Origin: Halothermothrix sp.
GTDB lineage: Bacteria; Bacillota; Halanaerobiia; DY22613
Length of the DNA stretch: 64,000 nt
Direction of reading: 5' to 3'
NCBI GenBank assembly: GCA_016841825.1
Contig: JAENYK010000001.1
Location: 248,001-312,000 of the forward strand
In this document: one piece after another, positions 28,087 to 47,318 of the stretch
How positions within the stretch are numbered: position 1 is the stretch's first letter
Layout of the letters: every line of letters begins with the position of its first letter
Program-made: the position numbers and the translations under genes
The notes under the pieces: generated by a model
The model's database searches: none
Told to the model about the DNA's origin: nothing
The model's input: only the letters and a program-made list of their open reading frames with translations

Positions 28087-28148
28087 TGGTTTTCTCCTTT
28101 CCTTATGCGAATACACTTTCCAGATACGATTTCACACTCTGTACAAAG

Positions 28149-28189
28149 AAGGCTATAGATTCTTATTACTCTTTAGAAACTATAGCCTT
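28149..28189. terminator. Inverted repeat between Yip1-like gene and first SPASM gene
   Basis: A perfect 10-bp stem AAGGCTATAG/CTATAGCCTT with a 21-nt loop. It lacks a strong T-run on the minus strand, so it may be a partial terminator that lowers expression of the last SPASM gene. Confidence 0.5.
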
Positions 28190-28238
28190 TAAAACTTTAG
28201 CAATGTTATTGATTAATGTTATCAGTAGATGATATTTT

Positions 28239-28838
28239 TTAAGCAAAAAGTAGTACTGGCGGAATATTGAGTATCAGCCATAACAAAATAGTATATCCAA
28301 TAGCCCATCCCTGTTTGACCTCCACTTTCTTATGGAAATAATAATAGAGTATAATCGAAGACCATAAGGAAAAAAGACTTATTCTACTACCAAGATCACT
28401 CAAAATAGGCTTTGAAAATATGTCCATTAACACTTTTACGTTTAATTCTAACACTCCCGGTAAGCCTGTTTTACTAATTAGTGCAGTCCAGACGATACCC
28501 AATATAATCGGCAAATATATCCAGACACTATATCCAAAAATATCTGCAAAGTTTTCTTGAGACTTATATAATCTGACTACAATCCAGATAACTATCGCCA
28601 TCAACAGGACGCTGCTGAACATAACAATATTCAGCATCACTCCCTGAATAACAACCAATACACCAGATAAAGTCTCGGTCATCTCCAGATCATTATAATC
28701 TTGCGGCAGAATTAGAATACTTAAAAAAGTACAGAAAACAACTAAACTGATCCCTATCCAAATATTTAACTGCAAATTTTGCCCAAAATACTTCTTAGGT
28801 TTACTCAAAAATAACCCCATATTTTTTAATGAACTCAT
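28239..28838 (-). CDS. Yip1-like integral membrane protein (second)
   Basis: 199 aa, five hydrophobic helices after a short N-terminal region (FLSKPKKYFGQN) typical of bacterial YIP1-domain proteins. It resembles the Yip1-like protein at the other end of the cluster (45602-46240) in layout: an FxxxPxxxF start and five helices. Its start overlaps the preceding gene's stop, so it is translationally coupled. A role as membrane anchor or in immunity is a guess. Confidence 0.7.
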   Translation of the reverse strand: MSSLKNMGLFLSKPKKYFGQNLQLNIWIGISLVVFCTFLSILILPQDYNDLEMTETLSGVLVVIQGVMLNIVMFSSVLLMAIVIWIVVRLYKSQENFADIFGYSVWIYLPIILGIVWTALISKTGLPGVLELNVKVLMDIFSKPILSDLGSRISLFSLWSSIILYYYFHKKVEVKQGWAIGYTILLWLILNIPPVLLFA

Positions 28839-30412
28839 ACCTCATCTCCCCCAATATCAGTTGATTTGAAGAAATTATCCAGATAGACCAGCCGATAGAT
28901 ACTGCTCAATCTCACAACCTGCTCAATATGATTTGTTAAACGTTCAACAGGAGCATATTGATCTGTTAGCAATATCCCATCTTCCAGATCATACTCTCTG
29001 GTCAAAGAATATTGACCAGCAAATACCTGTAAATTATCTTTGATCACAGGGTCAGTACCCTTCCAATTTTGAACCCGGGTCAACAGTTCCTCCTTATTGA
29101 CTAACGAGTCACCATTATCAGCCACAATAATGATATTGCGTAATAATGTTGGATCATTCAGCTCTTCACTATCATGTTTTTTGGGAAAAATATAGGCATG
29201 GTTAAATTGGCTGGTTATCGTTTTCAAGATACTCTTAAACATTAAAGAGTCTTCGCCTTCCAGGGAACTGATAATGTTTACCACTAAGACCCCTTCTGGC
29301 TTCAGACAGGCTCGAGCCTGGGCAAATACTTCTTTTGTCGTCAGATGGAAAGGAGGTGCTGCAGTCCCATATGCATCGAAGATTACTATATCATACCTGG
29401 TTGAAGTCTTTTTAAAAAACATCCGTCCGTCTTCAACATATACCTGTGACTGTCTTTGATCAAAATTAAATATGTTTTTAGCGACATCAATTACTACCGG
29501 ATCAATCTCAACTATGTCCATCTGAAAATCGGAATAATTATTCTTAAAAGTCTCAAAACCGTAACCTGTCCCCAGACCCAGAAGTAAGCCTTTTTTCATC
29601 TCCGGAGTAAAAAGGGAGCCCAGATGGAAATAATCCTGATAAGGTATATAGCGATCTCCATCAATCACTTCACCCGATTCATCAATCTTAATCGCACCAC
29701 CCTGAGAGATTCCATTCAACAACAGCCATCTTCTACCATTGTAATCTGCAACAACTACCTGATTATAAGGACCATCTTTTTCAAAAACGATCGCATCTGA
29801 ATCAATTACCGGAATTAGAATCAGGAGCAGCAAAGCGGCGATATAGAACTTTTTTCCTTTTAACGCCACCAATACTAACAGAATCAAAACAACTGACATA
29901 CTATACAGGATATTGTTCACCCCAAGATAGGGGATAAACACAAATGTTGTTAAAAACGTACCAATAATACTGCCCAAAGTGGACAAAGCACTTAACTGTC
30001 CTGCGATACTGCCAATACTCTCTGTACCTTTACTGCATAATTTAATGGCAAAAGGTGAGACTGTACCCAGAAGAATTCCCGGAGGTACAAAGAGAATTAG
30101 TGCAGCAATGAGTGGCCCTACCGTCATCCCAATCAAACTACTCCCCATCAGAATAAAAGGAGCAAAGGGTGGGATTAATAAGATTAATCCTCCGGCACCT
30201 GCGATCAAATATAATAAAATCTCAATCCGCGGATAACGATCGGCAATTCGTCCACCCCAATAGTATCCAAGCGATAGTGCTGCCAAAATCATTCCGATCA
30301 TTGCTGTCCAGACATACGAAGTACTGCCAAAGTATGGAGCGATTACTCTACTTCCCAAAGTCTCTAAAATCATTACCGATGCACCACAGATAAAAACAAT
30401 AACTCTTAACAA
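28835..30412 (-). CDS. Membrane-fused spermidine-synthase-like protein
   Basis: 525 aa with a TTG start after GGAGGGGG. Residues ~1-200 form about seven or eight transporter-like helices (SLGYYWGGRIADRYPRIE resembles an MFS loop). Residues ~215-500 are a spermidine-synthase-type Rossmann fold with GLLLGLGTGYGFETF and DIVEIDPVVIDVA. These membrane-fused synthases are common, but the small-molecule role is rarely known. The cluster position suggests alkyl or aminopropyl transfer or transport of the product; the substrate is unknown. Confidence 0.82.
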   Translation of the reverse strand: MLRVIVFICGASVMILETLGSRVIAPYFGSTSYVWTAMIGMILAALSLGYYWGGRIADRYPRIEILLYLIAGAGGLILLIPPFAPFILMGSSLIGMTVGPLIAALILFVPPGILLGTVSPFAIKLCSKGTESIGSIAGQLSALSTLGSIIGTFLTTFVFIPYLGVNNILYSMSVVLILLVLVALKGKKFYIAALLLLILIPVIDSDAIVFEKDGPYNQVVVADYNGRRWLLLNGISQGGAIKIDESGEVIDGDRYIPYQDYFHLGSLFTPEMKKGLLLGLGTGYGFETFKNNYSDFQMDIVEIDPVVIDVAKNIFNFDQRQSQVYVEDGRMFFKKTSTRYDIVIFDAYGTAAPPFHLTTKEVFAQARACLKPEGVLVVNIISSLEGEDSLMFKSILKTITSQFNHAYIFPKKHDSEELNDPTLLRNIIIVADNGDSLVNKEELLTRVQNWKGTDPVIKDNLQVFAGQYSLTREYDLEDGILLTDQYAPVERLTNHIEQVVRLSSIYRLVYLDNFFKSTDIGGDEV

Positions 30413-31779: not shown

Positions 31780-33120
31780 TCAATATTTGGAAAAAAGAAT
31801 TTGTCTCTGGAGACAACGTTCTTCGTTTGGTGCTCCATACCAGTCTCCATGAATCGGAAGTGCCCAGGCCCGGCAGCTGGCATCACATAGTTGGTTGTAT
31901 TGACAATCTCTACATTTCTCAATCTGATCTATCTCCAGATGGCGAATTTTCTGTAGTAATTCACCGTTTTGCCAGATATCAGTAAAAGACCGCTGACGAA
32001 TATTGCCATCAACATAACCCATACCGTCATAGAGCCTCCAACAGGGGGTAGTAGTTCCATCAGCCAGAATAACAACCGTACTCAAACAGCTATTACAAGC
32101 TTTCTTAACCGAAACTGGATTAATCAACTCACCTAAGATACTGGTATGAAATACACTACCAATGGCAACCTTCTGCGGCTCTGGAGATGAAGCCAGACTG
32201 GTGTAATAAGAGATAAACTCAATCTGTTCATCCATAGATAAAGCTACATCATCCCAGTTTTCTTTAGCTCGTCCCATTTTGCGAACATAGTCATAGGCGA
32301 ACTCATAGACACCCAATTCCTGTGCTAACTCGTACAATTTCCGGTATTCGTGAAAGTTCACTCGGGAAATTACCGAATTAATGCACACAGGCAAACCCGC
32401 TGCAACCATCTGTTTGATTTTGGGAATTAATCTGGCAAACTTACCTTTTCCCCTATATTTATCATGAATTTCTGCTGTTGCCCCATCCATACTAATCTTT
32501 AAAGATGCCAGAGCACACTTTTGCAGTCTCTCTATAGCTTCTTCGTCCACCAGAGAACCATTTGTGCATAAGCTTACTAACATACCTTTACTATTGGCAT
32601 ATTCAACCAGATCCAGAAAATCCGGACGTAAAAATGGTTCCCCACCAGTTAACGTAATATGTAATGGCTTAAATTTAGCAAGTTCATCCATCAAAGCCAT
32701 TATCTCTTCAGTCGTCATCTCATCCTCAGTAACAGACTCGGAATTTGGAAAGCAGTGAATACATTTAAAATTACATCGATTAGTCACCCGCATACTTACC
32801 AATTCGATATTTGGTTCTAACTGTTCAGGAGCAACCGGTTTACCCGTTGACTGGTCAAAAGTGATCCAATCTTTTTGTAATAACAGATTAAAAAAATCCT
32901 GACAGTCATTTAAGATAACATCAAAATCTGCTGCAAACTCTTCACTAGCTTTCTGGGCTATATCAGAAATTGAATGTTTGCCGTCAACATAACTTATAAA
33001 ATAAGTCCCGGTTTCATTTAACTTCATGCGGCCAGGAAAATCATAAATGTCATATAAAAGTGATCCATAAGGCTTTTTTTTCCAGAATATATTACTTTTC
33101 ATGAATACTCTCTCACACAT
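31780..33120 (-). CDS. SPASM-domain radical SAM protein (third)
   Basis: 446 aa from the ATG 33118-33120, preceded by GGAAGGTG. N-terminal PqqD-like domain (LNETGTYFISYVDGKHSISD), then Cys116/120/123 (TNRCNFKCIHC), LTGGEPFLRP, and SPASM ligands ACNSCLSTVVILADGTTTPC, CRDCQYNQLCDASCRAW. The frame stays open 44 codons upstream to an ATG that overlaps the MacB stop, and that stretch encodes a precursor-leader-like VEVSDEKF; see the separate entry. Either the enzyme carries a fused leader or two starts are used. Confidence 0.88.
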   Translation of the reverse strand: MCERVFMKSNIFWKKKPYGSLLYDIYDFPGRMKLNETGTYFISYVDGKHSISDIAQKASEEFAADFDVILNDCQDFFNLLLQKDWITFDQSTGKPVAPEQLEPNIELVSMRVTNRCNFKCIHCFPNSESVTEDEMTTEEIMALMDELAKFKPLHITLTGGEPFLRPDFLDLVEYANSKGMLVSLCTNGSLVDEEAIERLQKCALASLKISMDGATAEIHDKYRGKGKFARLIPKIKQMVAAGLPVCINSVISRVNFHEYRKLYELAQELGVYEFAYDYVRKMGRAKENWDDVALSMDEQIEFISYYTSLASSPEPQKVAIGSVFHTSILGELINPVSVKKACNSCLSTVVILADGTTTPCWRLYDGMGYVDGNIRQRSFTDIWQNGELLQKIRHLEIDQIEKCRDCQYNQLCDASCRAWALPIHGDWYGAPNEERCLQRQILFSKY

Positions 33121-33252
33121 CTTTTCACCTTCCCACTTCCTTGTAAAATAGCATACATTGTAATATAATAAGATTGCAGAATAAAAGATCTGAATAGTGA
33201 ACTTCTCATCACTAACCTCTACAAACAGATCCTTTGTTCTGCTTTTATTCAT
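33121..33252 (-). other. In-frame leader-like segment ahead of the third SPASM gene
   Basis: An ATG at 33250-33252 overlaps the MacB stop (ATGAATAA) and opens a frame reading MNKSRTKDLFVEVSDEKF, then a hydrophobic stretch (IFYSAILLYYNVCYF) and directly into the SPASM enzyme without a stop. The motif VSDEKF is the conserved leader core of the four precursor peptides, and 25 bp (33200-33224) are identical to 46368-46392. It is either a fused leader peptide or a decayed precursor gene. Confidence 0.6.
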
Positions 33253-34429
33253 AATTCAATGACTCAATTGGGTCTAATTGTTGAGCCTTCCAGGCGGGAT
33301 ACAGTCCAGAAATAACTCCAATTCCGACTGCAAATCCCAATGAGATGGCAATTGTCTCCCAGGTGATCTTTGATTGAATCGGACTCAACTGATTAACTAT
33401 AGTTGAACCAAGATAACCTAACCCTATCCCCAAACATCCCCCGGTCAGACAGAGTACAATCGCTTCAATAATAAACTGAGCCAGAATATAGTTCTTCTTA
33501 GCTCCTAATGCTTTTCGTATTCCAATCTCCCGGGTTCTTTCAGTTACAGTAACCAACATAATATTCATAATACCAATTCCACCAACTACCAGAGAGATAC
33601 TGCCAATAGCTCCTAACAAAGCTGTAAGCACAGTTGTCAGCATTTTGATATTATCCTGAAGTTCAGTGATCGGTGTAACCAAAAACGGAATGTAGTTATA
33701 TTTTAGATTGAATAGTTTTTTCAGCTGATTTTGCACCTGAACTGTTTTGATCTGAGGGTTATGCTGCAGTAGGACCATCTCATTTTCATAATTACCTGTT
33801 TGAACACGATAGATAGTATCCGGGATATATATCTTCTGATCCCCAGTAAACCCCATATTCAAATCATTCTGTTTAGCCAACACTCCAATAATCTTAAACT
33901 TTACTTCCCCCAATTGAACCTCTCTACCGACCACATCTTCTTCTGTCTGCAAAATATCTTCTTTAACCTTCTGACCGATGACACAGACCGGAATCTGACT
34001 AGATTCTTCTAAAGAAGTAAAGAATCGTCCCGATTCAAATTTGAGATGAACAACTTTAGTAAAATTATAAGTTGTACCCAGGACGTAAGTATAGACACTC
34101 TCTGTTCTGTATTTGACCAGAGTCTGCCACCAATTTATTGGCACAATCTCCCTGATGTCCTGTGACCCTTTCTCAATCAGCATCAAATCACTCTGACTAA
34201 ACCAGCGGGGAACTCTGTTTTTGTTGGTAATGTCTGCTTCAATAATCAATGTATTCATTGACGTACTTGAGAACTCATCTAAGAGCATTGATCTGGCACC
34301 AGAACCCAGAGAGATCATGAGCATCACCGAAGCTACTCCAACCAAAATCCCAAACAGGGCTAACAGATTGCGAAATTTGCTAGTCAACAAACTTTCCAGA
34401 CTAATCTGCATTACATCCAAAAAATGCAC
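33245..34429 (-). CDS. MacB-type ABC permease (no ATPase domain)
   Basis: 394 aa with a GTG start eight bases after GGGGGG. One N-terminal helix (LLALFGILVGVASVMLMISLG), a large extracytoplasmic MacB core domain (residues ~50-260) and three C-terminal helices with TERTREIGIRKALGAKK. MacB-type permeases act mechanically with an adaptor rather than as channels. The adaptor gene is directly upstream (5-bp gap) and the nearest ATPase is two genes further on; they may together export the modified peptide. Confidence 0.88.
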   Translation of the reverse strand: MHFLDVMQISLESLLTSKFRNLLALFGILVGVASVMLMISLGSGARSMLLDEFSSTSMNTLIIEADITNKNRVPRWFSQSDLMLIEKGSQDIREIVPINWWQTLVKYRTESVYTYVLGTTYNFTKVVHLKFESGRFFTSLEESSQIPVCVIGQKVKEDILQTEEDVVGREVQLGEVKFKIIGVLAKQNDLNMGFTGDQKIYIPDTIYRVQTGNYENEMVLLQHNPQIKTVQVQNQLKKLFNLKYNYIPFLVTPITELQDNIKMLTTVLTALLGAIGSISLVVGGIGIMNIMLVTVTERTREIGIRKALGAKKNYILAQFIIEAIVLCLTGGCLGIGLGYLGSTIVNQLSPIQSKITWETIAISLGFAVGIGVISGLYPAWKAQQLDPIESLNYE

Positions 34430-37656: not shown

Positions 37657-38985
37657 TTATAGTTTAGCAATCATTTGAGCATCATAAAATAAATTTTGAA
37701 TTACATCTGAATTTAAATATCTCGTTGAAATTACCGGATTGGTAAAGTTATATTGATCCCAATCTCTTGTCAGAAAGCGAATCCCCAGATCTTCAGCATG
37801 TTGATAGAAATAAGTTCCGGGAAGTGGTGTAAAGATTGCAAATACTAACCTGATATGATTATCCCGTTCATCAATCTGGATACTCTTTAAAGCTCTCCCT
37901 AGATTCAATGTATGTAAAATATCTTCCTGATTATCATCGGGTAGTCCAATAATCATCGAACAGATTACATTTAATCCTACCTCATATGCTTGACGAACAG
38001 CATTCTTTACTTCTGAAGTACTGATACCTTTATCAATTTTCTCCAACATGGCATCACTTCCACTCTCCACCCCAAATTGAATGGAGTAACACCCGGACTC
38101 TTTCATCAGACTCAAAATCTCTGAGTCCACTGTATTAACCCGTCCCTCACATTGCCAGACAATATCTAAACCCCGCTCTTTTAGTCCATAACAGAACTCT
38201 TTAACCCGCTTTTTAGAATAAGTAAAGGTATCGTCAGCAATAAAAAATTGATCCCGATTGAAGTTCTTGTGCAATAATTCAATCTCATCGAGTACCTTGA
38301 CCAATGAGCGTTGACGATATCGTTTACCAGAGTACACGTTGGCAGAACAAAATCTACAGTTAAATGGACAACCTCTACCGGTTACGATATTCATCACTCC
38401 ATTGACTTGATCGTACTGCTCTAAATTTAGCAGATCATAGGCAGGAAAGGCAAGCTGATCTAAGTCAGTAATAAACTCCCGCTGTTCTGTATGGACTATC
38501 TCACCATCTTTTAAAAAACTAATTCCTCTGATCTGATCCAATCTTTGAACAGACCGACCAAGATAATGTTCAGTTATTTCAGCAAAAGTCAATTCACCTT
38601 CATGTCGACAAACTATATCAACAAACCCTGTCTGCAATGTTTCTGTAGGAAGAAAGGTTGGTTGTGGCCCACCCATAATTACAATAATCGCAGAATCAAC
38701 CTCTTTTGTAATCTGGGCCACACGAATTCCATTGCGATAATTGTTCACTGTACTGGTAATTCCTACAAGCTTCGGTTTTACCTGAGCCAGGTATTCTTTT
38801 AAATCCTTCCCTTTCATTCCCCGCATTCCAAGATCGAGAATCTCCACAGAATATTTATCCCGAACCATTGTCGCCAGATACCCTAATCCTATTGGAGGTA
38901 AACAGTTGTGTAATGCATTATACTTTTTATCGGCAAAGGCTGCACTAGGTGGACTAATCAAGACTATATCAGGCTTTGATTCCAT
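37657..38985 (-). CDS. Cobalamin-binding-type radical SAM enzyme A
   Basis: 442 aa. N-terminal B12-binding Rossmann domain (residues ~1-150; PPIGLGYLA, MGGPQPTF) without the DxHxxG histidine, then a radical SAM core with Cys206-X3-Cys210-X2-Cys213 (GRGCPFNCRFC), FIADDTFTY, and the class-B motif FTPLPGTYFY. The family performs C-methylations and other chemistry on unactivated carbons. The C terminus (LGIRFLTRDWDQYNFTNPVI) is shared with enzymes B, C and E. It is one of five paralogues here; the peptide is the likely substrate (inference). Confidence 0.88.
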   Translation of the reverse strand: MESKPDIVLISPPSAAFADKKYNALHNCLPPIGLGYLATMVRDKYSVEILDLGMRGMKGKDLKEYLAQVKPKLVGITSTVNNYRNGIRVAQITKEVDSAIIVIMGGPQPTFLPTETLQTGFVDIVCRHEGELTFAEITEHYLGRSVQRLDQIRGISFLKDGEIVHTEQREFITDLDQLAFPAYDLLNLEQYDQVNGVMNIVTGRGCPFNCRFCSANVYSGKRYRQRSLVKVLDEIELLHKNFNRDQFFIADDTFTYSKKRVKEFCYGLKERGLDIVWQCEGRVNTVDSEILSLMKESGCYSIQFGVESGSDAMLEKIDKGISTSEVKNAVRQAYEVGLNVICSMIIGLPDDNQEDILHTLNLGRALKSIQIDERDNHIRLVFAIFTPLPGTYFYQHAEDLGIRFLTRDWDQYNFTNPVISTRYLNSDVIQNLFYDAQMIAKL

Positions 38986-38997
38986 TTTCCATCCCCC

Positions 38998-39369
38998 TTA
39001 AAACCACTGATCTTTTGGATATAAATGTTTATAGAGCCGACAATACCACTGGTTGATCTTAAATCCCAGACTCCGTCGATTGTGAACAACCATTCGCTTT
39101 TTCATGATCTGATAAAACTGCTCCAAATCATGATAGAGGGCTGTTTTATCATCTAATTGATACTCTTCTTTCATACATTCGATAATTTCCGAAAAACTTT
39201 TATCTTCTTTCATTAGTTCTAAAAGATAGACCGAAGTGTCATTCAATTCCACATATGAATAAAGCAATCTATCTTTTAACAGAATAACTCCATCCTCTTC
39301 TACCACAGAAATCCCCTGACCTATTACCGGAACCATATTCTTTCCTTTTTTTTCAATGCTCTTATTCAT
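38998..39369 (-). CDS. PqqD-like leader-binding protein (first)
   Basis: About 123 aa if it begins at the ATG 39367-39369, which overlaps the upstream stop as ATGAATAA; a later ATG at 39335 with GGAAAG upstream is an alternative. VVEEDGVILLKDRLLYSYVELN, LMKEDKSFSEIIECMKEEY and the winged-helix pattern resemble PqqD/RRE domains that bind RiPP leaders. The extra C-terminal ~25 basic/aromatic residues are unusual. It sits between two cobalamin-type enzymes and may deliver the precursor to them. Confidence 0.72.
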   Translation of the reverse strand: MNKSIEKKGKNMVPVIGQGISVVEEDGVILLKDRLLYSYVELNDTSVYLLELMKEDKSFSEIIECMKEEYQLDDKTALYHDLEQFYQIMKKRMVVHNRRSLGFKINQWYCRLYKHLYPKDQWF

Positions 39370-40708
39370 CCAGTTCATCCCTCCAACATCGGTAAGACTC
39401 TACCAGAAAATTGGTTAATTGAGCACGCTTTAAATGTCGAGTCTCAATAACTGGCTGCAAGAAATTATACTGATTCCAATCCTTTGTCAAAAATTTAATA
39501 CCCAACTCTTCAGCATGTTCATAAATATATGTTCCCGGTAACGGAGTACAGATCGCAAAAGCAGTCTGGATTTTGGAAGTAGCTGAACCTTCACGCAGAC
39601 TATGGAGACTCTGAGCAAATTTAATCGTATTATTGACCATCTCCTCAGTCTCCATCGGTAGTCCAATTATAAAAGAACATTTAACATCCAGTTGGGCATG
39701 ATGGGCATCCAGAACTGCCTGACGCACCTGATCTAAACTAATCTCTTTTTTGATCTCTTTCAAAATTTCAGGATTGGCTGACTCTACCCCAAATTGTACC
39801 CCGACACAGCCTGCTGCTTTCATGGTAGTCATTAGATCATAATTCACAGTATTAACCCTGGCCTCACATTTCCATTTAATTTTCAGGCCAAGTTGAATAA
39901 TCCTTTCACAAAAATCCCTTACTCTATCCTCATAAAAAGTAAACGTATCATCCAGTATCATAAATCGCTGCACATTTTTTTCATGAATCAGATATTCAAT
40001 CTCTCCGATAACATCTTCGATGGGCCGTACCCGATATTTCCGTCCACTCAATGCATGAGCCACGCAAAAAATACAGCCATATGGGCAACCTCTTCCGGTA
40101 ATAATTGGAGCAATATTGTTATATTTATTATAATCAAAGATATGATGCACAGGTGAACCCAGATCCTTTACATCAGTAAAACCTTTACGCTTCTCTGTGC
40201 GAATAATCTGTTCATTTTTCAGATAGGCGATCCCTTTAATCGCTGATAGATCTCTCTGGTTGGCCTGAAAAACTTTCATTAACTCGATAATCGTCTCTTC
40301 TCCTTCATTAATGCAGACTATATCAATATATCCAGAACGTAAAGCATCTTCCGGAATAAAACTTACGTGAGGCCCTCCCATAATTACTTTAGTCTGCGGA
40401 AGAACCTGTTTAACGATTTGGGCTACCAATAAACCGTTATTATAGTTATTCACCAGAGCGGTAATCCCTACTATTTGGGGAGTAGTTGTCTGCAGAAGAT
40501 CTATTAATTCCTGCTTTCCCATCCCCTCAGTAGCCATGTCAATGATATCAAAAGAATAATTATGTAACATCAAAGATTTTGCTACATAACTTAATCCAAC
40601 AGGTGGTAAACTATTATGCGTTCCAGAAACCAATTCTTCAAATACAACAGATGGTGGACTAATGAGAAGAATATCCGGTTGAATAACATTCATCTTCTCT
40701 ACTTCCAT
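39362..40708 (-). CDS. Cobalamin-binding-type radical SAM enzyme B
   Basis: 448 aa; the ATG at 40706-40708 overlaps the preceding PqqD-like gene's stop (TAATG). B12 domain with PPVGLSYVA and MGGPHVSF but no DxHxxG. Cluster Cys208/212/215 (GRGCPYGCIFC), FMILDDTFTF, and CTPLPGTYIY. The C-terminal LGIKFLTKDWNQYNFLQPVI matches enzymes A, C and E. It has Cys residues VGVQFGVES near the core, as in the other members. Role inferred as for A. Confidence 0.87.
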   Translation of the reverse strand: MEVEKMNVIQPDILLISPPSVVFEELVSGTHNSLPPVGLSYVAKSLMLHNYSFDIIDMATEGMGKQELIDLLQTTTPQIVGITALVNNYNNGLLVAQIVKQVLPQTKVIMGGPHVSFIPEDALRSGYIDIVCINEGEETIIELMKVFQANQRDLSAIKGIAYLKNEQIIRTEKRKGFTDVKDLGSPVHHIFDYNKYNNIAPIITGRGCPYGCIFCVAHALSGRKYRVRPIEDVIGEIEYLIHEKNVQRFMILDDTFTFYEDRVRDFCERIIQLGLKIKWKCEARVNTVNYDLMTTMKAAGCVGVQFGVESANPEILKEIKKEISLDQVRQAVLDAHHAQLDVKCSFIIGLPMETEEMVNNTIKFAQSLHSLREGSATSKIQTAFAICTPLPGTYIYEHAEELGIKFLTKDWNQYNFLQPVIETRHLKRAQLTNFLVESYRCWRDELDE

Positions 40709-41046
40709 TAGAATGGAGCCCAATCTTTGATTATTAGCCCCATATCCTCCATATTATCCAGAAATGCTTCCAGATCTTGAGTAACCTGTTCAGTCTCAAC
40801 ATCATATTCTTCTACAATCCGCTTAACCATATCTTCAATTGTATTTCCACCATCACATAACTCCCAAAAGATAACACCGATACCCTGGATTCGAATGACA
40901 TTACCTTCAACAGTGAACTCTCCACTATCATTGGCAGATCCATTACTCAGATAGACAACAACAGACTTATCCTCACTCTCAATATTCTCATATTTCCAGA
41001 GAACTACTTTTTTCTTTGGTGTATAAGCTAAATATGCACTATCCAT
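40708..41046 (-). CDS. PqqD-like leader-binding protein (second)
   Basis: 112 aa with AAGGAG before the ATG. The C-terminal half (GIGVIFWELCDGGNTIEDM, VKRIVEEYDVETEQV, DLEAFLDNMEDMGLI) has the PqqD winged-helix signature, including the W/F-x-L-x-D-G turn. The first ~45 residues are a separate beta-rich region (TVEGNVIRIQ). It is coupled to enzyme B by a stop/start overlap and lies seven bases after the protease gene, forming a leader-binding, protease and modifying-enzyme block. Confidence 0.75.
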   Translation of the reverse strand: MDSAYLAYTPKKKVVLWKYENIESEDKSVVVYLSNGSANDSGEFTVEGNVIRIQGIGVIFWELCDGGNTIEDMVKRIVEEYDVETEQVTQDLEAFLDNMEDMGLIIKDWAPF

Positions 41047-41053
41047 CCTTTAA

Positions 41054-41689
41054 TCACTCCTTATCTCTTTTGCTTTGCATCAGATATCCTAGCATCTCAA
41101 GAACACAAAACGCCAGTAGTCTTATTCGTTTTCCTAAACCGATCTGATAAGCTTTGGAGATCTGTCTGATCCGACGCCCATCTCCCCCTGCTATCAAAGT
41201 ATATAGATTAAATATCAAAAAAATCACCAAACCCACATTGATCACCAGATCACAGTGATACAATATACTAATTGTTAGCGTGATAAACAAAAGAATTGAC
41301 ACCCCGACCGGTCCAGCATACAAAATCTTAATTATTTCATTAACATCCATATTTTGATCGGCGAATAAGATCCGCATTTTAAATTGAACCGGCAGCATCA
41401 CCACCTGATATGAGTCTCCTTTCAACAGAGCATACCATTCTAACAGGTGACAGAACTCATGGACCACTATAGAAAGAATAGGAATTAAAATTATAACAAT
41501 TGCAGAATTCAAAGTGAACCATCCCAGACTAACGGTTCCTTCCACAGCCCAATTGAGTCCAACAGACAATAGTGTCAAAAAAAGTAAAGGGATAATCATA
41601 TATTTAGTCGATATTTTTAAAAGTCGTAAAAAACTGATCCCCGGTTTTTCATTTCTTGTATATTCCCAGACAACTCCCCGCAAGTACAT
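41054..41689 (-). CDS. HEFCH-motif membrane metalloprotease (M50/DUF3267-like)
   Basis: 211 aa from the ATG at 41687-41689, overlapping enzyme C's stop (TGATG). Four or five helices; HEFCH at residues 77-81 sits at the end of the second helix (IPILSIVVHEFCHLLEWYA), as in membrane-embedded zinc proteases. The third ligand is not certain; an NPDG motif is absent, but AGPVGVSILLF follows a hydrophobic domain. It is the only obvious protease in the cluster and may remove the leader during export (inference). Confidence 0.72.
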   Translation of the reverse strand: MYLRGVVWEYTRNEKPGISFLRLLKISTKYMIIPLLFLTLLSVGLNWAVEGTVSLGWFTLNSAIVIILIPILSIVVHEFCHLLEWYALLKGDSYQVVMLPVQFKMRILFADQNMDVNEIIKILYAGPVGVSILLFITLTISILYHCDLVINVGLVIFLIFNLYTLIAGGDGRRIRQISKAYQIGLGKRIRLLAFCVLEMLGYLMQSKRDKE

Positions 41690-42999
41690 CACTGATCACC
41701 TACCATTTCCCGGACAGGTGCATTAGCTGCAAAAAATAACTCACGTAAATCGTCCTGAGTAAAGTGTTCAGTATTAATAACCGGTTCCATAAATGTATAT
41801 CGATCCCAGTCTTTAGTCAGAATTTCAATCCCGAAATCCTCTGCACGGTCATAGAACTCAGTGCCCGGTAAAGGTGTAAGAATGGAAAAATAGATCGTAA
41901 TATCTGCTTCTGTCGGTGATTGCTTTAATTCGCGTAATTGGTGAATCAAATCAAAAGTCCTATGCAGACTTTCTTCAGTATCTTCCGGAAGCCCCAAAAT
42001 AAATGAGCAGGTCAACTGCATTCCAATATCATGAATCCGTCTTGCTGCATCCAGGATCAACTCAAGAGAGATTCCTTTACCAATATTTTTCAGTACCTTC
42101 TCATCTCCAGATTCTATACCCAACAATATTCCTTTACAGCCAGCCCGGTACATAAGTTCCAGGCTATTCTGAGGAACACAATCAACCCTGGTTCCACATC
42201 CCCAGATCAGACCGTAATTCCGCTCGATTAAACCTGAACAGATCTCCTGGGTTCTTTTCTGATTATAAACAAAAGTATCATCAGCAAAATATACCCGTTT
42301 AATCTGAAATTTATTATATAATTCATCAATCTCTGCTAAAACATTTTTCGCAGAACGAGCCCGAAATTTACGTCCACATAATGAACTGGACGCACAAAAC
42401 TTACAGACAAACGGACAACCCCGTCCCGTAATAATCGTTCCAGATTCCTGATATAAAGAGATATCCATTAATTCTCTGGCTGGAAAAGGAACCTGGTCTA
42501 ATTCTTTAATCATCGAACGCTTTTTGGTAAAGATCAAATCATTTCCTTTCCGGAAAACTATCCCCGCTATATCTTCAAGTTTTTCCGGATTTCCCGCAAA
42601 TCTATGACGAACTAGTTCGAGAAAAGTATATTCACCTTCTCCCAGAACAATTACATCAATCTCCTTAACCTGAGTTAGAGTCTCTTCAGCCAGAAAGGTC
42701 ACATGCGGTCCTCCCATGGCCACCATAGCTTCCCCGCCTAAAACTTCTTTCACAATTCGGGCAACCTTACATCCACTCTTATGAACATTAACCAGAGATG
42801 AGATGCCCACAATCTTTGGTCTATTCTCCTCAAGGATCTGTATAAGCTCATTTTTTTTCATCTTAGTCGCTGCCATATCAATAATCTTTACAGAATACCT
42901 ATCTTTGACCATTCCGGCCAAATAACCTAATCCCAGAGGAGGGACTTGACTTCTTTCAGCTCCAACAATGGGAGGCAAAATAAGTAGAATATCAAGCAT
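41689..42999 (-). CDS. Cobalamin-binding-type radical SAM enzyme C
   Basis: 436 aa. B12 domain (PPLGLGYLA, MGGPHVTF) without DxHxxG, cluster Cys195/199/202 (GRGCPFVCKFC), FADDTFVYNQ, LTPLPGTEFY and a C-terminal LGIEILTKDWDRYTFMEPV-like segment (here FGIEILTKDWDRYTF). It is most similar to enzyme E: the two share FPARELMDISLY-like and ESGTIITGRGC-like stretches. GGGGGAAG precedes the ATG. Role inferred as peptide C-alkylation or related. Confidence 0.88.
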   Translation of the reverse strand: MLDILLILPPIVGAERSQVPPLGLGYLAGMVKDRYSVKIIDMAATKMKKNELIQILEENRPKIVGISSLVNVHKSGCKVARIVKEVLGGEAMVAMGGPHVTFLAEETLTQVKEIDVIVLGEGEYTFLELVRHRFAGNPEKLEDIAGIVFRKGNDLIFTKKRSMIKELDQVPFPARELMDISLYQESGTIITGRGCPFVCKFCASSSLCGRKFRARSAKNVLAEIDELYNKFQIKRVYFADDTFVYNQKRTQEICSGLIERNYGLIWGCGTRVDCVPQNSLELMYRAGCKGILLGIESGDEKVLKNIGKGISLELILDAARRIHDIGMQLTCSFILGLPEDTEESLHRTFDLIHQLRELKQSPTEADITIYFSILTPLPGTEFYDRAEDFGIEILTKDWDRYTFMEPVINTEHFTQDDLRELFFAANAPVREMVGDQ

Positions 43000-43011
43000 A
43001 GTCTTCCCCCT

Positions 43012-44289
43012 TTAAACCTGTGATAATTCAATCATCGCATTTATATAAGCTTCACGAATCTCATTAGCATTTAAGTTTTTGGTATTAAAGATTGGATTAT
43101 TAGGACTAAAATCATCATAAGTTTTTGCCAGAATTTCTATTCCGTATTCATCTTTCTGCATCAAAAACGGTGTTCCCGGATATGGGGTAACAACATTAAA
43201 AAATACATCACTGCCATAATCTTTTTTCAAAGAGATAGCCAGATCGATCGACTCCCGCAGCGTCTTTTTAGTATCACAATGATGTCCTAACATAATTGTA
43301 CAGATCGGTTTGATTCCAGCTTTACTGGTCATTTGCACAGTATTTCTGACCTGTTCTAGAGTAATATTCTTCCGTATCAGATTCAAAACTTCCTGTGAAC
43401 CAGCCTCCACGCCAAACTCAATTCCCGCACATCCACTTTCCTTCATAGCCTGTAACATCTCTTCATCCAGAGTATCTACTCTGGATTCACACCACCAGCT
43501 AACTCCCGGAAGACTATCTTTGAGCCGACAGCAGAGTTCCAATAAACGCCGTCGATTTGAGGTCAATGTGCTGTCCTGAAATGCTAAAAACCGATTATTT
43601 TCATCAAAAGGCAGAGTTTTTAACTCAGCCATAATATTTTCAATTGATCTTTCACGATATCTCCCTTTATTTATAACCCTGGATACACAAAAAACACACC
43701 GTCCTGGGCAACCTCTGGTTGAGACTATACTAAAAGGCACTTGATATCTGGAAAGATCAAAATCTCCTCTCGCGGGAAAAGGTATTTCATTCAGATTATG
43801 AATAACATCCCGTTCAGGAGTCAGGATCACATGCTGGTTTTTTTTAAAACCAATTCCCTGAATATCTGGCAAACTCCCCTGACCTTCTAAAAAATAATTT
43901 GCCAATTCAACAATAGTTTTCTCCCCTTCACCGCGCACAACAATATCAACCTCATCATATTCAAGACATTCTTCTACAGTAAACGTCGGGTGAATCCCCC
44001 CTAGCAGTGTGACAATGTTCGGGTGGGATGCCCTGATAATTCGCAATATTCTGATTGTATTATTGAAATTTTCGGTAGCAGTAGACACTCCAATGATTTT
44101 CGGTTTCTCTGCTGTAATAACTTCTGTGATGTATTCCCTTAAACCTTTACCACAAGCTGATAGATCATATGCTTTGGCACTAAATCCTGCATCTCTTAAG
44201 ACCGCAATCAGATAAGCAATCCCCAGAGGTGGAGTCAGAGGTCTTTTCTCAAAATCAGATGGTGCTTGCAGCAGTATAATCTCAGACAT
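43012..44289 (-). CDS. Cobalamin-binding-type radical SAM enzyme D (divergent)
   Basis: 425 aa. B12 domain (PPLGIAYLIAV, LGGIHPTFTVEE), cluster Cys194/198/201 (TRGCPGRCVFC), LAFQDSTLTSNRRR in place of the ADDTF-Y pattern of A, B, C and E, and VTPYPGTPFL rather than TPLPGT. It also lacks the WDQYNF-like tail, ending with KTYDDFSPNNPIFN. It is therefore the most diverged of the five and probably has a distinct chemistry. It lies 12 bp downstream of enzyme C in the same direction. Confidence 0.86.
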   Translation of the reverse strand: MSEIILLQAPSDFEKRPLTPPLGIAYLIAVLRDAGFSAKAYDLSACGKGLREYITEVITAEKPKIIGVSTATENFNNTIRILRIIRASHPNIVTLLGGIHPTFTVEECLEYDEVDIVVRGEGEKTIVELANYFLEGQGSLPDIQGIGFKKNQHVILTPERDVIHNLNEIPFPARGDFDLSRYQVPFSIVSTRGCPGRCVFCVSRVINKGRYRERSIENIMAELKTLPFDENNRFLAFQDSTLTSNRRRLLELCCRLKDSLPGVSWWCESRVDTLDEEMLQAMKESGCAGIEFGVEAGSQEVLNLIRKNITLEQVRNTVQMTSKAGIKPICTIMLGHHCDTKKTLRESIDLAISLKKDYGSDVFFNVVTPYPGTPFLMQKDEYGIEILAKTYDDFSPNNPIFNTKNLNANEIREAYINAMIELSQV

Positions 44290-44299
44290 TTATCTCACC

Positions 44300-45586
44300 T
44301 CAACTTACAACCAGTGTTTCAAAGAGATAACCTTTCAACTGTTCTTTTGAAAGATTTCGTGTTTCGATCACTGGTTCTGTGAATTTAAAATTATCCCAGT
44401 TCTGACTGAGGAATTTTATCCCCAATTCTTCAGCATGTTCCCAATAGTATGTTCCAGGTAGTGGTGTCATAATCCCGAAAGTCGTATAGACAGGACACTC
44501 TTCTGTACCTATCTCCCTCAACTTATTGGCAAAACCCAGCGTATCTCTGACAGATTGATCAGTATCTTCAGGAAAACCGATAATAAAATAGCAAGTTACA
44601 ACCAAACTTGCTTCATGAGCCTCTAACACGGACTGCTCCACCATCTCCACGGTAATCCCCTTCGAGATACATTTTAATATCTCATTATTGCCTGACTCTA
44701 CTCCAAATCCAATTTTTCGACATCCAGCTTTTTTCATGTACTGTAAAAGTTCAAAAGGAATAGGTGGGTTAACCCGGGAAGTGCAGCACCATTGAATTGG
44801 TAGATTTTTAGTGATCAGCTTATCACAAAATTCATAAATTCGTTGATGATTTAAGACAAACGTATCATCCAATAAAAAAATCTCTTCCACACCATAGTTT
44901 CGATAAAGTAATTCCATCTCATCAATAACTCGATCAACACTTCTCAACCGATATCTTCCACCACAGAGGTAATTGGCCGCACAGAATTTACAGGTAAAGA
45001 CACAACCCCTTCCGGTAATAATCGAACCGGCTCTCTCATAAGTTGACAGATCGATCAGTTCCCGAGCCGGTAATGGCAGAGCATCAAGGTCTTTAATCAA
45101 TTCCCTCTCCGCAGTAACAGTAATCTGTTCCCCATTCATAAAAGCGATCCCTTTGATCTCTGCAAGGGAGCTGGGGTATTTCTCCAGATAATATTCCACA
45201 AGTTCAGTAAATGTCAGTTCTCCCTCAAAACGAACTACCACGTCAATATATCCTGTTTTCAAGACCTGTTTAACAATACAGGTAGCATGAGATCCACCCA
45301 TAATCACCGGAATTTCGGGATTATGTTCTTTAATAAGCTTTGCCAGACGACATCCGTTGTTATGAATTGTCACTAGAGAACTAATCCCAATAATCTTTGG
45401 GTCTTCCTGTGCCAGATATTCCATAAACCGATCTTTCTTCATCGGAGTGGCTACAAAATCTAAAATCTTAACTGTATATCCTTTCTGCTGAAGACATGCT
45501 GCAATATAGCAGATACCAAGAGGGGGAACTTCATGTCTGGTAAACTCATCGATGGAAGCCGGTATAATCAGTAAAATATCAGTCAT
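44300..45586 (-). CDS. Cobalamin-binding-type radical SAM enzyme E
   Basis: 428 aa; GAGGAGATGG before the ATG. B12 domain (PPLGICYIA, MGGSHATC) without DxHxxG, cluster Cys195/199/202 (GRGCVFTCKFC), LLDDTFVLN, MTPLPGTYYW and LGIKFLSQNWDNFKFTEPVI. It is the first modifying enzyme after the precursors and the Yip1-like protein, so probably the most expressed of the five. Closest to enzyme C. Confidence 0.88.
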   Translation of the reverse strand: MTDILLIIPASIDEFTRHEVPPLGICYIAACLQQKGYTVKILDFVATPMKKDRFMEYLAQEDPKIIGISSLVTIHNNGCRLAKLIKEHNPEIPVIMGGSHATCIVKQVLKTGYIDVVVRFEGELTFTELVEYYLEKYPSSLAEIKGIAFMNGEQITVTAERELIKDLDALPLPARELIDLSTYERAGSIITGRGCVFTCKFCAANYLCGGRYRLRSVDRVIDEMELLYRNYGVEEIFLLDDTFVLNHQRIYEFCDKLITKNLPIQWCCTSRVNPPIPFELLQYMKKAGCRKIGFGVESGNNEILKCISKGITVEMVEQSVLEAHEASLVVTCYFIIGFPEDTDQSVRDTLGFANKLREIGTEECPVYTTFGIMTPLPGTYYWEHAEELGIKFLSQNWDNFKFTEPVIETRNLSKEQLKGYLFETLVVS

Positions 45587-45601: not shown

Positions 45602-46240
45602 TTATTTGGTCAATCGCTGTAACAGCAGGTAATTGTAGCTAATCTGCCAACTTGTAGATAAAATCCAGAAAATAATTGTAATGACCAGTGATTTCTTTAA
45701 CGAAAGGTTTGAAACATTTTTTATTGCAGCAGATGCCATTGCAATATATGCAACAGCGAAAGGAGTAATACTGGCCAGAATCATTCCATGTAATGTAAAT
45801 AATCTCTCTTCCAACGGTAGAAAAGCCTCCAAACCTAAAGGAATCATCTGACCTGTTGGCAATAAAACCAGAGTAGTTAGCAGCATTGCAAACAGACTTG
45901 GTAAGATAAAATACCCCGTCATTGAAAAGATGACTTTGGCCTTTACCTTACTTCCCCCTGCCAACCGAATAAACAGACTGTACACTCCAGTTCTTATAAC
46001 CCAATAAATAAGATTAGTTATAACCAGAATAACCATATTAATTAATTGAGTTGATTCTCCATCGGGTATATCAACATTGAAATAATTTTCCATGACATTT
46101 TGATAAAAATCGCCGTTAGGGATACTTATAAAAGTATATAAAAGGATAAATACTATTGGTAAAATAATGGTAGGATTCTCTTTAAGCTGTCTAAAAAAAA
46201 TTCCTGGTTCGGTGAATAAGTTCAATTGTCTAACTTGCAT
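45602..46240 (-). CDS. Yip1-like integral membrane protein (first)
   Basis: 212 aa, five helices. NLFTEPGIFFRQLKENPTI is the typical short cytoplasmic start of bacterial Yip1-domain proteins; GGGSKVKAKVIFSMTGYFILP-like stretch near residues 93-113 is conserved in the fold. GGAGGAGATT precedes the ATG. It is the first gene after the precursors, and a similar protein lies at the far end of the cluster. Function unknown; membrane docking, export or self-immunity are possibilities. Confidence 0.72.
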   Translation of the reverse strand: MQVRQLNLFTEPGIFFRQLKENPTIILPIVFILLYTFISIPNGDFYQNVMENYFNVDIPDGESTQLINMVILVITNLIYWVIRTGVYSLFIRLAGGSKVKAKVIFSMTGYFILPSLFAMLLTTLVLLPTGQMIPLGLEAFLPLEERLFTLHGMILASITPFAVAYIAMASAAIKNVSNLSLKKSLVITIIFWILSTSWQISYNYLLLQRLTK

Positions 46241-46279
46241 AGAATCTCCTCCTCATAAAGAAGATATTATAAAAAAGAA

Positions 46280-46294
46280 TTAGTGTGGGGCATA
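46280..46294. repeat. 15-bp inverted repeat, distal arm
   Basis: TTAGTGTGGGGCATA here is the exact reverse complement of 47237-47251. The two arms enclose the four precursors and the mini-ORF. The arms could pair in the mRNA or in DNA. Confidence 0.7.
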
Positions 46295-46435: not shown

Positions 46436-46600
46436 TTACCAGCAATGTTTAGCAATAATTGCACCAGTAGCAGCAGCACCAGTAGTAATCCCAGCACCTG
46501 CCACAATTGCAGTACCTGGCTCAATTTCAGCAGAAGTTCCACTCATTGTAAACTGCTCATCACTAATTTTTACAACAGGAACATTATATTTTTTCTTCAT
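46436..46600 (-). CDS. RiPP precursor peptide 1
   Basis: 54 aa, minus strand; the ATG at 46598-46600 follows the stop of precursor 2 by 16 bases and has only a GGTGG site, so it is probably coupled. Leader MKKKYNVPVVKISDEQF carries a YxxP-type RRE-binding motif. The core region is small-residue rich (TAIVAGAGITTGAAATGAII) and ends AKHCW. It is the most diverged of the four copies (21 or so differences from precursor 3), so it may give a distinct product. Confidence 0.82.
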   Translation of the reverse strand: MKKKYNVPVVKISDEQFTMSGTSAEIEPGTAIVAGAGITTGAAATGAIIAKHCW

Positions 46601-46616
46601 AGTGGCCACCACCCGA

Positions 46617-46781
46617 TTACCAGCAATGCTTAGTAATGACTGCGGTAGTAGCAACACCAGCAGTAGTAATTCCAGCAGCTGCTACAGTTGCAGTACCTGG
46701 CTCAACTTCTGCGGATATCCCATTCATTACAAATTTCTCATCACTTACCTGTACAACAGGTGCAGAATATCTTTTTTTCAT
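46617..46781 (-). CDS. RiPP precursor peptide 2
   Basis: 54 aa; ATG at 46779-46781 with GGAGGAAT seven bases upstream. Leader MKKRYSAPVVQVSDEKFVM, then NGISAEVEPG and a core TATVAAAGITTAGVATTAVI ending TKHCW. It differs from precursors 3 and 4 at nine positions, mostly conservative. The conserved Cys-Trp end and Gly/Ala/Thr/Ile/Val composition suggest the modified segment. Confidence 0.87.
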   Translation of the reverse strand: MKKRYSAPVVQVSDEKFVMNGISAEVEPGTATVAAAGITTAGVATTAVITKHCW

Positions 46782-46834
46782 GGGTATTCCTCCTTTTTTA
46801 TAATCAGCAGACTAATACAGTCGCAAATTACTAA

Positions 46835-46999
46835 TTACCAGCAATGCTTGGCAATAATTGCAGTAGTTGCACCACCTACAGTAGTGATACCGGCTGCTGC
46901 TACAGTCGCAGTAGCTGGTTCAATCTCTGCAGAACTTCCACTCATCACAAATTTCTCATCGCTTACCTGTACAACAGGTGCAGAATATCTTTTTTTCAT
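46835..46999 (-). CDS. RiPP precursor peptide 3
   Basis: 54 aa; ATG at 46997-46999 with GGAGGAAT. Leader MKKRYSAPVVQVSDEKFVM, SGSSAEIEPA, core TATVAAAGITTVGGATTAII, tail AKHCW. Protein identical to precursor 4 with two synonymous base changes, indicating recent duplication or purifying selection. The Y-x-x-P-x-V pattern and DEKF resemble leader motifs bound by PqqD-like domains (compare lasso leaders), by analogy. Confidence 0.88.
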   Translation of the reverse strand: MKKRYSAPVVQVSDEKFVMSGSSAEIEPATATVAAAGITTVGGATTAIIAKHCW

Positions 47000-47046
47000 G
47001 GGTATTCCTCCTTTCAGTGTCAAATTGTCCTCTAGCTTAGTGTTAA

Positions 47047-47211
47047 CTACCAGCAATGCTTGGCAATAATTGCGGTAGTTGCACCACCTACAGTAGTGAT
47101 ACCGGCTGCTGCTACAGTTGCAGTAGCTGGTTCAATCTCTGCAGAACTTCCACTCATCACAAATTTCTCATCGCTTACCTGTACAACAGGTGCAGAATAT
47201 CTTTTTTTCAT
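47047..47211 (-). CDS. RiPP precursor peptide 4 (promoter-proximal)
   Basis: 54 aa, TAG stop, ATG at 47209-47211 with GAGGAGGAAT. The amino acid sequence equals precursor 3. It is first in the transcript, 192 nt after the predicted promoter -10. The four copies repeat every ~180-218 bp. No signal peptide is visible, so export needs the dedicated ABC machinery. Confidence 0.88.
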   Translation of the reverse strand: MKKRYSAPVVQVSDEKFVMSGSSAEIEPATATVAAAGITTVGGATTAIIAKHCW

Positions 47212-47236: not shown

Positions 47237-47251
47237 TATGCCCCACACTAA
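47237..47251. repeat. 15-bp inverted repeat, proximal arm
   Basis: TATGCCCCACACTAA, exact complement of the arm at 46280-46294. It lies in the untranslated leader 26 bp ahead of the first precursor. Confidence 0.7.
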
Positions 47252-47318
47252 ACCTTAAAACCTAAAATTGTTCAACCATTAGTTAAAATTACAATAGAAT
47301 TTCATAATCATAACCTAA

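Follow-up and report, generated by a model that had tools for sequence, protein, structure and literature searches.

The stretch of DNA analysed here (the window) comprises 64,000 nucleotides (nt) from Halothermothrix sp. (assembly GCA_016841825.1, contig JAENYK010000001.1, positions 248,001 to 312,000 of the forward strand). It holds a minus-strand gene run that opens with four tandem 54-codon open reading frames (ORFs; 46436-47211) for putative precursor peptides and includes five genes, A to E, encoding cobalamin (B12)-dependent radical S-adenosylmethionine (SAM) enzymes.

37657-38985, minus strand: B12-radical SAM enzyme A; intact ORF, Pfam domains, CxxxCxxC
39362-40723, minus strand: B12-radical SAM enzyme B; intact ORF, Pfam domains, CxxxCxxC
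41689-42999, minus strand: B12-radical SAM enzyme C; intact ORF, Pfam domains, CxxxCxxC
43012-44289, minus strand: B12-radical SAM enzyme D, divergent group; intact; model predicted local distance difference test (pLDDT) score 90.3
44300-45586, minus strand: B12-radical SAM enzyme E; intact; model pLDDT 93.8
46436-46600, minus strand: precursor peptide 4, 72% identical to precursor 1
46617-46781, minus strand: precursor peptide 3, 85% identical to precursor 1
46835-46999, minus strand: precursor peptide 2, protein identical to precursor 1
47047-47211, minus strand: precursor peptide 1, 54 amino acids (aa), YSAPVV leader motif, ends AKHCW

All of A to E carry B12-binding and Radical_SAM domains above the curated Pfam cut-offs as well as a CxxxCxxC site, which places them in the B12-dependent radical SAM class. 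Identity to E is 42-43% for A, B and C and 35% for D, in agreement with a preliminary description of this locus (37657-45586) as five intact paralogues of which one, D, is divergent. As also described there, TPLPGT is found in A, B, C and E and TPYPGT in D, and none of the five has DxHxxG. Two other motifs were only partly as described. ADDTF-Y is indeed absent from D, which has QDSTL instead, but it occurs in A and C only (ADDTF..Y), the motif common to A, B, C and E being DDTF (ILDDTFTF in B, LLDDTFVL in E); and the C-terminal tail given as W-D/N-x-F is shared by these four and replaced by YDDFSP in D, although its exact form is W-[DN]-x-[YF]-x-F. B12-radical SAM genes are common in the host genome (28 matches at E ≤ 1e-10), but in a family profile search of that genome E ≤ 1e-105 was reached by A to E alone, so they are no chance grouping.

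The precursor DNA forms a 184-nt repeat family (71-98% identity to a reference copy), and an identical strong ribosome site precedes three of the four ORFs. The consensus reads MKK[RK]Y..PVV..SDE.F.M.G.SAE.EP.TA.VA.AGITT...AT.A[IV]I[AT]KHCW; each peptide has one Cys, and the predicted core lacks Tyr and Phe, the final Trp being its sole aromatic residue of these types. Across the six precursor pairs, Nei-Gojobori estimates gave nonsynonymous divergence (dN) of 0-0.19 and synonymous divergence (dS) of 0.05-0.89, dN being the lower value in all six, and the precursors have therefore been kept as peptides by purifying selection. No NCBIfam model covered the five precursors scanned, the only match being lasso_cyano at E=0.31. 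The leader motif [YW]xxPx[LVIFA] was present in 9/9 precursor sequences compared, while 2-10% of shuffled sequences per peptide carried it. Motifs of the YxxPx[LVIFA] type are described as bound by the recognition elements (RREs) of lasso peptides and LPPs in the text available for PMC13381572. Short precursors beside maturation enzymes, selection on the peptides and recurrence in other genomes, along with PqqD-type proteins and a leader motif that they would be expected to bind, are the marks of a pathway for a ribosomally synthesized and post-translationally modified peptide (RiPP), and we consider it nearly certain that the gene cluster is one.

A single scan of an 84,980-species collection with patterns derived from A, B, C and E left 79 loci, and inspection of the neighbourhoods of the nearest loci, extended to other parts of those genomes, revealed four further gene sets, in Pelotomaculum, Eubacterium, Anaerocolumna and Thermoflexales, mostly distantly related to the host. 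In all five genomes a small ORF encodes a YxxPx[LVIFA] leader followed by an aliphatic core, and ends in K-x-C-(x)-W or KWC. The Pelotomaculum set (L015) has two enzymes of the clade described below, two PqqD and two SPASM genes and a precursor MKKVYEAP...VYNKHCPW; the Eubacterium set (L018) has one such enzyme, two PqqD genes, one SPASM gene and a precursor ...AAALAKWC; and the Anaerocolumna set (L019/L111/L125) has four enzymes, three PqqD and two SPASM genes, a precursor ...TIYTKHCW and an M50-like peptidase (25.6 bits; cut-off 27.2). In Thermoflexales (Chloroflexota; L127/L016/L126) at least three full-length enzymes were found on two contigs, with PqqD, and SPASM genes on a third contig; its two tandem precursors end in ...VY[AV]KNCAW and differ by a dN of 0.008 and a dS of 0.205. 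PqqD genes adjoin clade enzymes in L015, L018, L019 and L127. When the precursors were aligned, only the first Met, the Y and P of YxxP and the terminal K and C were invariant. The C-terminal 25 residues of the seven precursors from the five K-x-C-W/KWC genomes are 28-52% alanine. A tail filter, written after these precursors had been seen, matched four times in the window, once each in L015, L018 and L019, twice in L127 and in 0/84 other loci (1,283,319 bases; own-genome and duplicate loci were excluded, and the 84 include overlapping ones). When 60 relatives and the own genome were searched for the precursor, 1/61 was positive, namely the own genome. Precursors, PqqD proteins, SPASM enzymes and exporters at the locus, and the same arrangement in other genomes, thus bear out the placement of A to E among peptide-pathway enzymes.

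The Anaerocolumna set adjoins a LanC-like gene, and a 719-aa ABC exporter-like ORF whose N-terminus looks C39 peptidase-like by eye lies just ahead of the precursor (L019:110-3362). In a Bathyarchaeota locus (L128:6036-10419) a SPASM-like, a B12-radical SAM and a weak B12-radical SAM-like gene stand in a row without an evident precursor. An enzyme of genome G1353 (L155) passed a looser score cut; having neither PqqD nor precursor, it was placed outside the system.

In a tree of 44 rows chosen from 158 search matches, A, B, C and E and ten rows from the four other genomes formed a 14-row clade (bootstrap 97, SH-like approximate likelihood-ratio test (SH-aLRT) 94); an earlier 69-row tree without L127 had given a clade of 13 rows with a support of 96. 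Precursors share a contig with every clade row except the two L016 rows, in whose genome they lie on another contig. A, B, C and E formed a single branch in only 8% of bootstrap trees. Those of Anaerocolumna, four in number, are most closely related to one another (100/99) and stand apart from A, B, C and E, so enzyme copies have multiplied independently at least once. D is set apart, as had been described: it pairs with L142 (90/88) within a group (91/88) that includes L141 and three archaeal enzymes, with weaker support than the A/B/C/E clade. The L142 locus has a YxxP ORF, a PqqD gene directly after it and a D-like enzyme gene in a row, while L141 has a PqqD gene, a D-like enzyme, two SPASM genes and a less certain precursor ORF, which was picked by eye and partly for its YxxP and so is weaker evidence than the better placed ORF of L142. 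Both enzymes have TPYPGT, as D does. No precursor was seen at the archaeal loci L017 and L020, and L021 has a PqqD gene with no clear precursor. Given the context of L141 and L142 and their TPYPGT motif, the divergence of D looks like the trait of a group whose members are also tied to PqqD.

The A/B/C/E clade is rare. With a strict cut, genomes with a match numbered 1/59 in the host's class, 1/397 in the Anaerocolumna family, 1/346 in the Thermoflexales class, 2/113 in the Pelotomaculum class (one D-like), 2/295 in the Eubacterium order (one D-like), 2/398 in the host's phylum (one unrelated in context) and 2/309 in the phylum around genome G1151 (G1151 and apparently that same unrelated genome); four to five candidates per genome were scored in the larger sets, so absences there are not firm.

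The remaining features of the gene run, including two apparent relics of precursor leaders, are as follows.

26755-28116, minus strand: third radical SAM-SPASM protein, possible member
28239-28838, minus strand: second Yip1-domain protein, possible member
28835-30412, minus strand: fused protein resembling major facilitator superfamily (MFS) transporters and spermidine synthase, 13 nt after SPASM2; NF037959, 198 bits
30426-31922, minus strand: radical SAM-SPASM enzyme 2 (SPASM2) with a weak PqqD region; true start probably past the end of SPASM1
31780-33252, minus strand: PqqD-radical SAM-SPASM enzyme 1 (SPASM1); true start probably near 33110
33199-33222, minus strand: precursor-leader-like DNA relic before SPASM1; 0.02 pattern matches expected in the window
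33245-34429, minus strand: MacB/FtsX-type permease; PF12704, PF02687
34435-35688, minus strand: HlyD/MacA-type adaptor; PF13437
35702-36721, minus strand: ABC-2 permease; PF12698
36723-37670, minus strand: ABC transporter ATPase; drrA-like, 273 bits, below cut-off
38998-39378, minus strand: PqqD-type putative leader-binding protein (RRE); PF05402, 35 bits
40708-41046, minus strand: PqqD-type putative leader-binding protein (RRE); PF05402, 57.5 bits
41054-41692, minus strand: membrane zincin (HEFCH), candidate leader protease; PF11667 (DUF3267), E=0.004, below cut-off
45602-46240, minus strand: Yip1-domain membrane protein; PF04893, 52.9 bits
46331-46414, minus strand: short ORF with precursor-leader fragment VEVSDEKF, probably a relic

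After the precursors and a 195-nt gap the order is Yip1, E, D, C, zincin, PqqD, B, PqqD, A, ABC ATPase, permease, MacA-like, MacB-like, SPASM1, SPASM2 and the MFS/spermidine-synthase-like gene, then the second Yip1 and the third SPASM gene. From Yip1 to the MFS/spermidine-synthase-like gene, neighbours overlap or lie ≤15 nt apart; the third SPASM and second Yip1 genes (26755-28838) may be part of the cluster. Pelotomaculum has an HlyD adaptor with a fused Yip1-like region (25.9 bits, below cut-off; L015:14469-16598), a hint that in the window, too, the Yip1 protein has a role in export. The close partner of SPASM1 is an Anaerocolumna enzyme (49%, 100/100); identities are 35-38% in Pelotomaculum and 29-33% in Thermoflexales, on branches without resolution, and at best 23% in the Eubacterium genome with KWC, a hint that SPASM1 may go with the KHCW tail. 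The two leader fragments have a 23-nt stretch in common, and the one at 33199-33222 lies where the SPASM1 ORF begins, 13 kb away from the precursor array, a pattern as if precursor copies had spread and then decayed. Moreover, a 20-nt inverted repeat (90%; 46275-46294 and 47237-47256, 942 nt apart) brackets the whole array and may reflect past recombination or form a long-range RNA stem.

Our favoured reading, to which we give a probability of roughly 70%, is that this is a RiPP pathway in which the B12 enzymes C-methylate the aliphatic core while the SPASM enzymes act at the K-x-C-W end. The four tandem genes would yield 54-aa precursors, whose YxxPx[VLIFA] leader would be held by PqqD-type proteins, namely the two free ones and the PqqD regions that the SPASM enzymes carry. 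All five B12 enzymes would use SAM and methylcobalamin to place methyl groups on unactivated carbons of the core (about TATVAAAGITTVGGATTAIIA), and at least one of them probably methylates it. Precedents are ApyD, described as making beta-methyltyrosine in a RiPP in the text available for PMC11117315, and PoyC and PoyB, described as dividing the polytheonamide core between them in that for PMC11285071. Whether A to E likewise divide the work by position or residue is, in our view, an even bet. One or more SPASM enzymes could modify the conserved K-H-C-W, most likely via its single Cys (a thioether) or a ring carbon, a step that we propose tentatively, at a little under even odds; a thioether from the conserved Cys is the first guess because, in the PDB, SkfB is closest to both SPASM1 and SPASM2, and 5WGG ranks next for SPASM2. 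The membrane zincin would then remove the leader, and the ABC exporters would release the hydrophobic peptide.

Several points weigh against this reading. The proposed pathway has no known product, its zincin is weakly assigned, and the number of enzymes is not tied to core length, since the Eubacterium set has one B12 enzyme and a similarly long core. A B12-radical SAM enzyme of another RiPP pathway, PbsB, is described as crosslinking rings with no methylation in the text available for PMC12257519. Finally, A to E reach no specific family cut-off, with porphyrin, hopanoid and peptide models scoring nearly alike, and AprD4, a diol dehydratase and no methylase, is the best match in the PDB by sequence and by fold.

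The family-model scores, which stand in for a tree with BchE, HpnJ and ApyD sequences, were for A to E 174-207 bits for BchE (TIGR02026; cut-off 481), about 161-205 for HpnJ (TIGR03471; 578), 150-196 for ApyD (NF050148; 750), 84-128 for the RiPP maturation C-methyltransferase rSAM_ocin_1 (TIGR03975; 282) and 28.9-53.6 for TsrM (TIGR04428; 500). An HpnJ family search picked up sequences in two control genomes, all of them below the cut-off. Kinship with TsrM, suggested in the preliminary description, was rejected: the TsrM model scores far below BchE/HpnJ (162-207 bits), TsrM ranks last among the six best PDB sequence matches (72 bits), and DxHxxG is missing from the first 140 residues in 44/44 tree rows, A to E included, so that its absence, being general among the rows examined, carries no TsrM signal. 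Placement with lipid or nucleotide enzymes, the outcome there named as contrary to a peptide role, did not occur, although models as near-equal as BchE, HpnJ and ApyD cannot settle the matter. That BchE and HpnJ, the top models, are named for a cyclase and a hopanoid biosynthesis protein and not for methylases, according to the text available for PMC12257519, would also suit a scheme in which A to E act on the same peptide as crosslinking or rearrangement enzymes with cobalamin as an electron relay, in the manner of PbsB in biphenomycin-like peptides. PbsB, however, joins two ortho-tyrosines by their aromatic phenols (same source), whereas the core in the window lacks both Tyr and Phe and has a single Trp at its end, and it is difficult to see what five crosslinkers would do on so short an aliphatic core; such a role is rather unlikely.

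AlphaFold models of E and D matched B12-radical SAM structures over their whole length. Among the structures ranked by Foldseek, Z scores for E and D were 35.7 and 34.9 with AprD4, 33.2 and 31.8 with CysS, 31.9 and 32.7 with MgmA, 31.5 and 31.4 with OxsB and 29.2 and 28.9 with TsrM; as judged from these models, MgmA, a methylase acting on a peptide, and two further methylases, CysS and TsrM, are among the nearest solved structures. The lead of AprD4, which works without B12, could suggest that the B12 domain is vestigial and that A to E are radical oxidases, dehydratases or epimerases of Thr, Ala or Val residues. Its sequence match (162 bits) covers the radical SAM part only, unlike the matches to MgmA, OxsB, CysS and TokK, which extend into the B12 domain, and PF02310 (B12-binding) is present beside the radical SAM domain in 14/14 rows of enzyme alignment A6, both of which make a vestigial domain improbable. 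It is very improbable that A to E act on a small molecule, such as a lipid or porphyrin, and have peptide genes nearby by chance, as the occurrence of one clade with one precursor type in five genomes and the interleaving of PqqD with enzyme genes outweigh the equal scores of the BchE, HpnJ and ApyD models.

Within the C-methylation reading, A to E might methylate the alpha carbon of Ala, perhaps also Val, giving residues like 2-aminoisobutyric acid and thus ribosomal counterparts of peptaibols, which would be helical, resist proteases, act on membranes and have a crosslinked K-x-C-W end. The idea arises from the Ala-rich cores, from hydrogen abstraction being easier at the alpha carbon than at the alanine methyl, and from MgmA, which has the same compact fold and reportedly makes 2-methylglutamine, termed C-alpha methylation in the title of a cited paper; we give it only a small chance.

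What is new here is a probable RiPP family combining a known enzyme type in unusual number with a new precursor type; a literature search of open-licence papers found no description of such a cluster. If the reading holds, up to five B12-radical SAM enzymes act on one short peptide in an undescribed family. With four substrates in tandem and a dedicated set of enzymes, the way in which related B12 enzymes share one peptide could be studied directly, and tools for methylating unactivated carbons in peptides might follow.

Among known systems, TsrM shares with A to E the B12-radical SAM fold and the lack of an axial His, but it matches them weakly in sequence and methylates tryptophan C2. The text available for the review PMC9692996 places R69, W76 and L322 beneath the cobalamin in TsrM, TokK and Mmp10. 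AprD4 (PDB 6FD2) is the closest PDB entry and has the TPYPGT of D, but its substrate is an aminoglycoside precursor. Both SPASM1 and SPASM2 match the sactipeptide maturase SkfB (6EFN) best in the PDB, and the second match of SPASM2 is 5WGG, which we take to be CteB, a ranthipeptide maturase. In sactipeptides a SPASM enzyme links Cys of the core to alpha carbons. By contrast with sactipeptides and ranthipeptides, the precursors here have a single Cys and the SPASM enzymes reach no NCBIfam cut-off. ApyD, of the pathways for aminopyruvate-type RiPPs, is likewise a B12-radical SAM enzyme and its model is among the top three for A, C, D and E and third for B, but it is longer (645 model positions), has its own RRE and acts on Tyr. 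MgmA, the glutamine methylase of methyl-coenzyme M reductase (PDB 9CCB), is a compact B12-radical SAM enzyme of similar fold that acts on a peptide residue; it differs in having one protein substrate, in methanogens, with 23-24% identity in the aligned fold and scores below the TIGR04014 cut-off. Proteusins have a long nitrile-hydratase or nif11-like leader, and the precursors of the window, at 54 aa, match no proteusin leader model and fall outside that class. In the polytheonamide pathway, as described in the text available for PMC11285071, several C-methylations of an aliphatic core are split by position between more than one B12-radical SAM enzyme (PoyB and PoyC), much as proposed here, whereas the window differs from it in the short YxxP leader, the PqqD proteins, the terminal K-x-C-W and the two or three SPASM enzymes.

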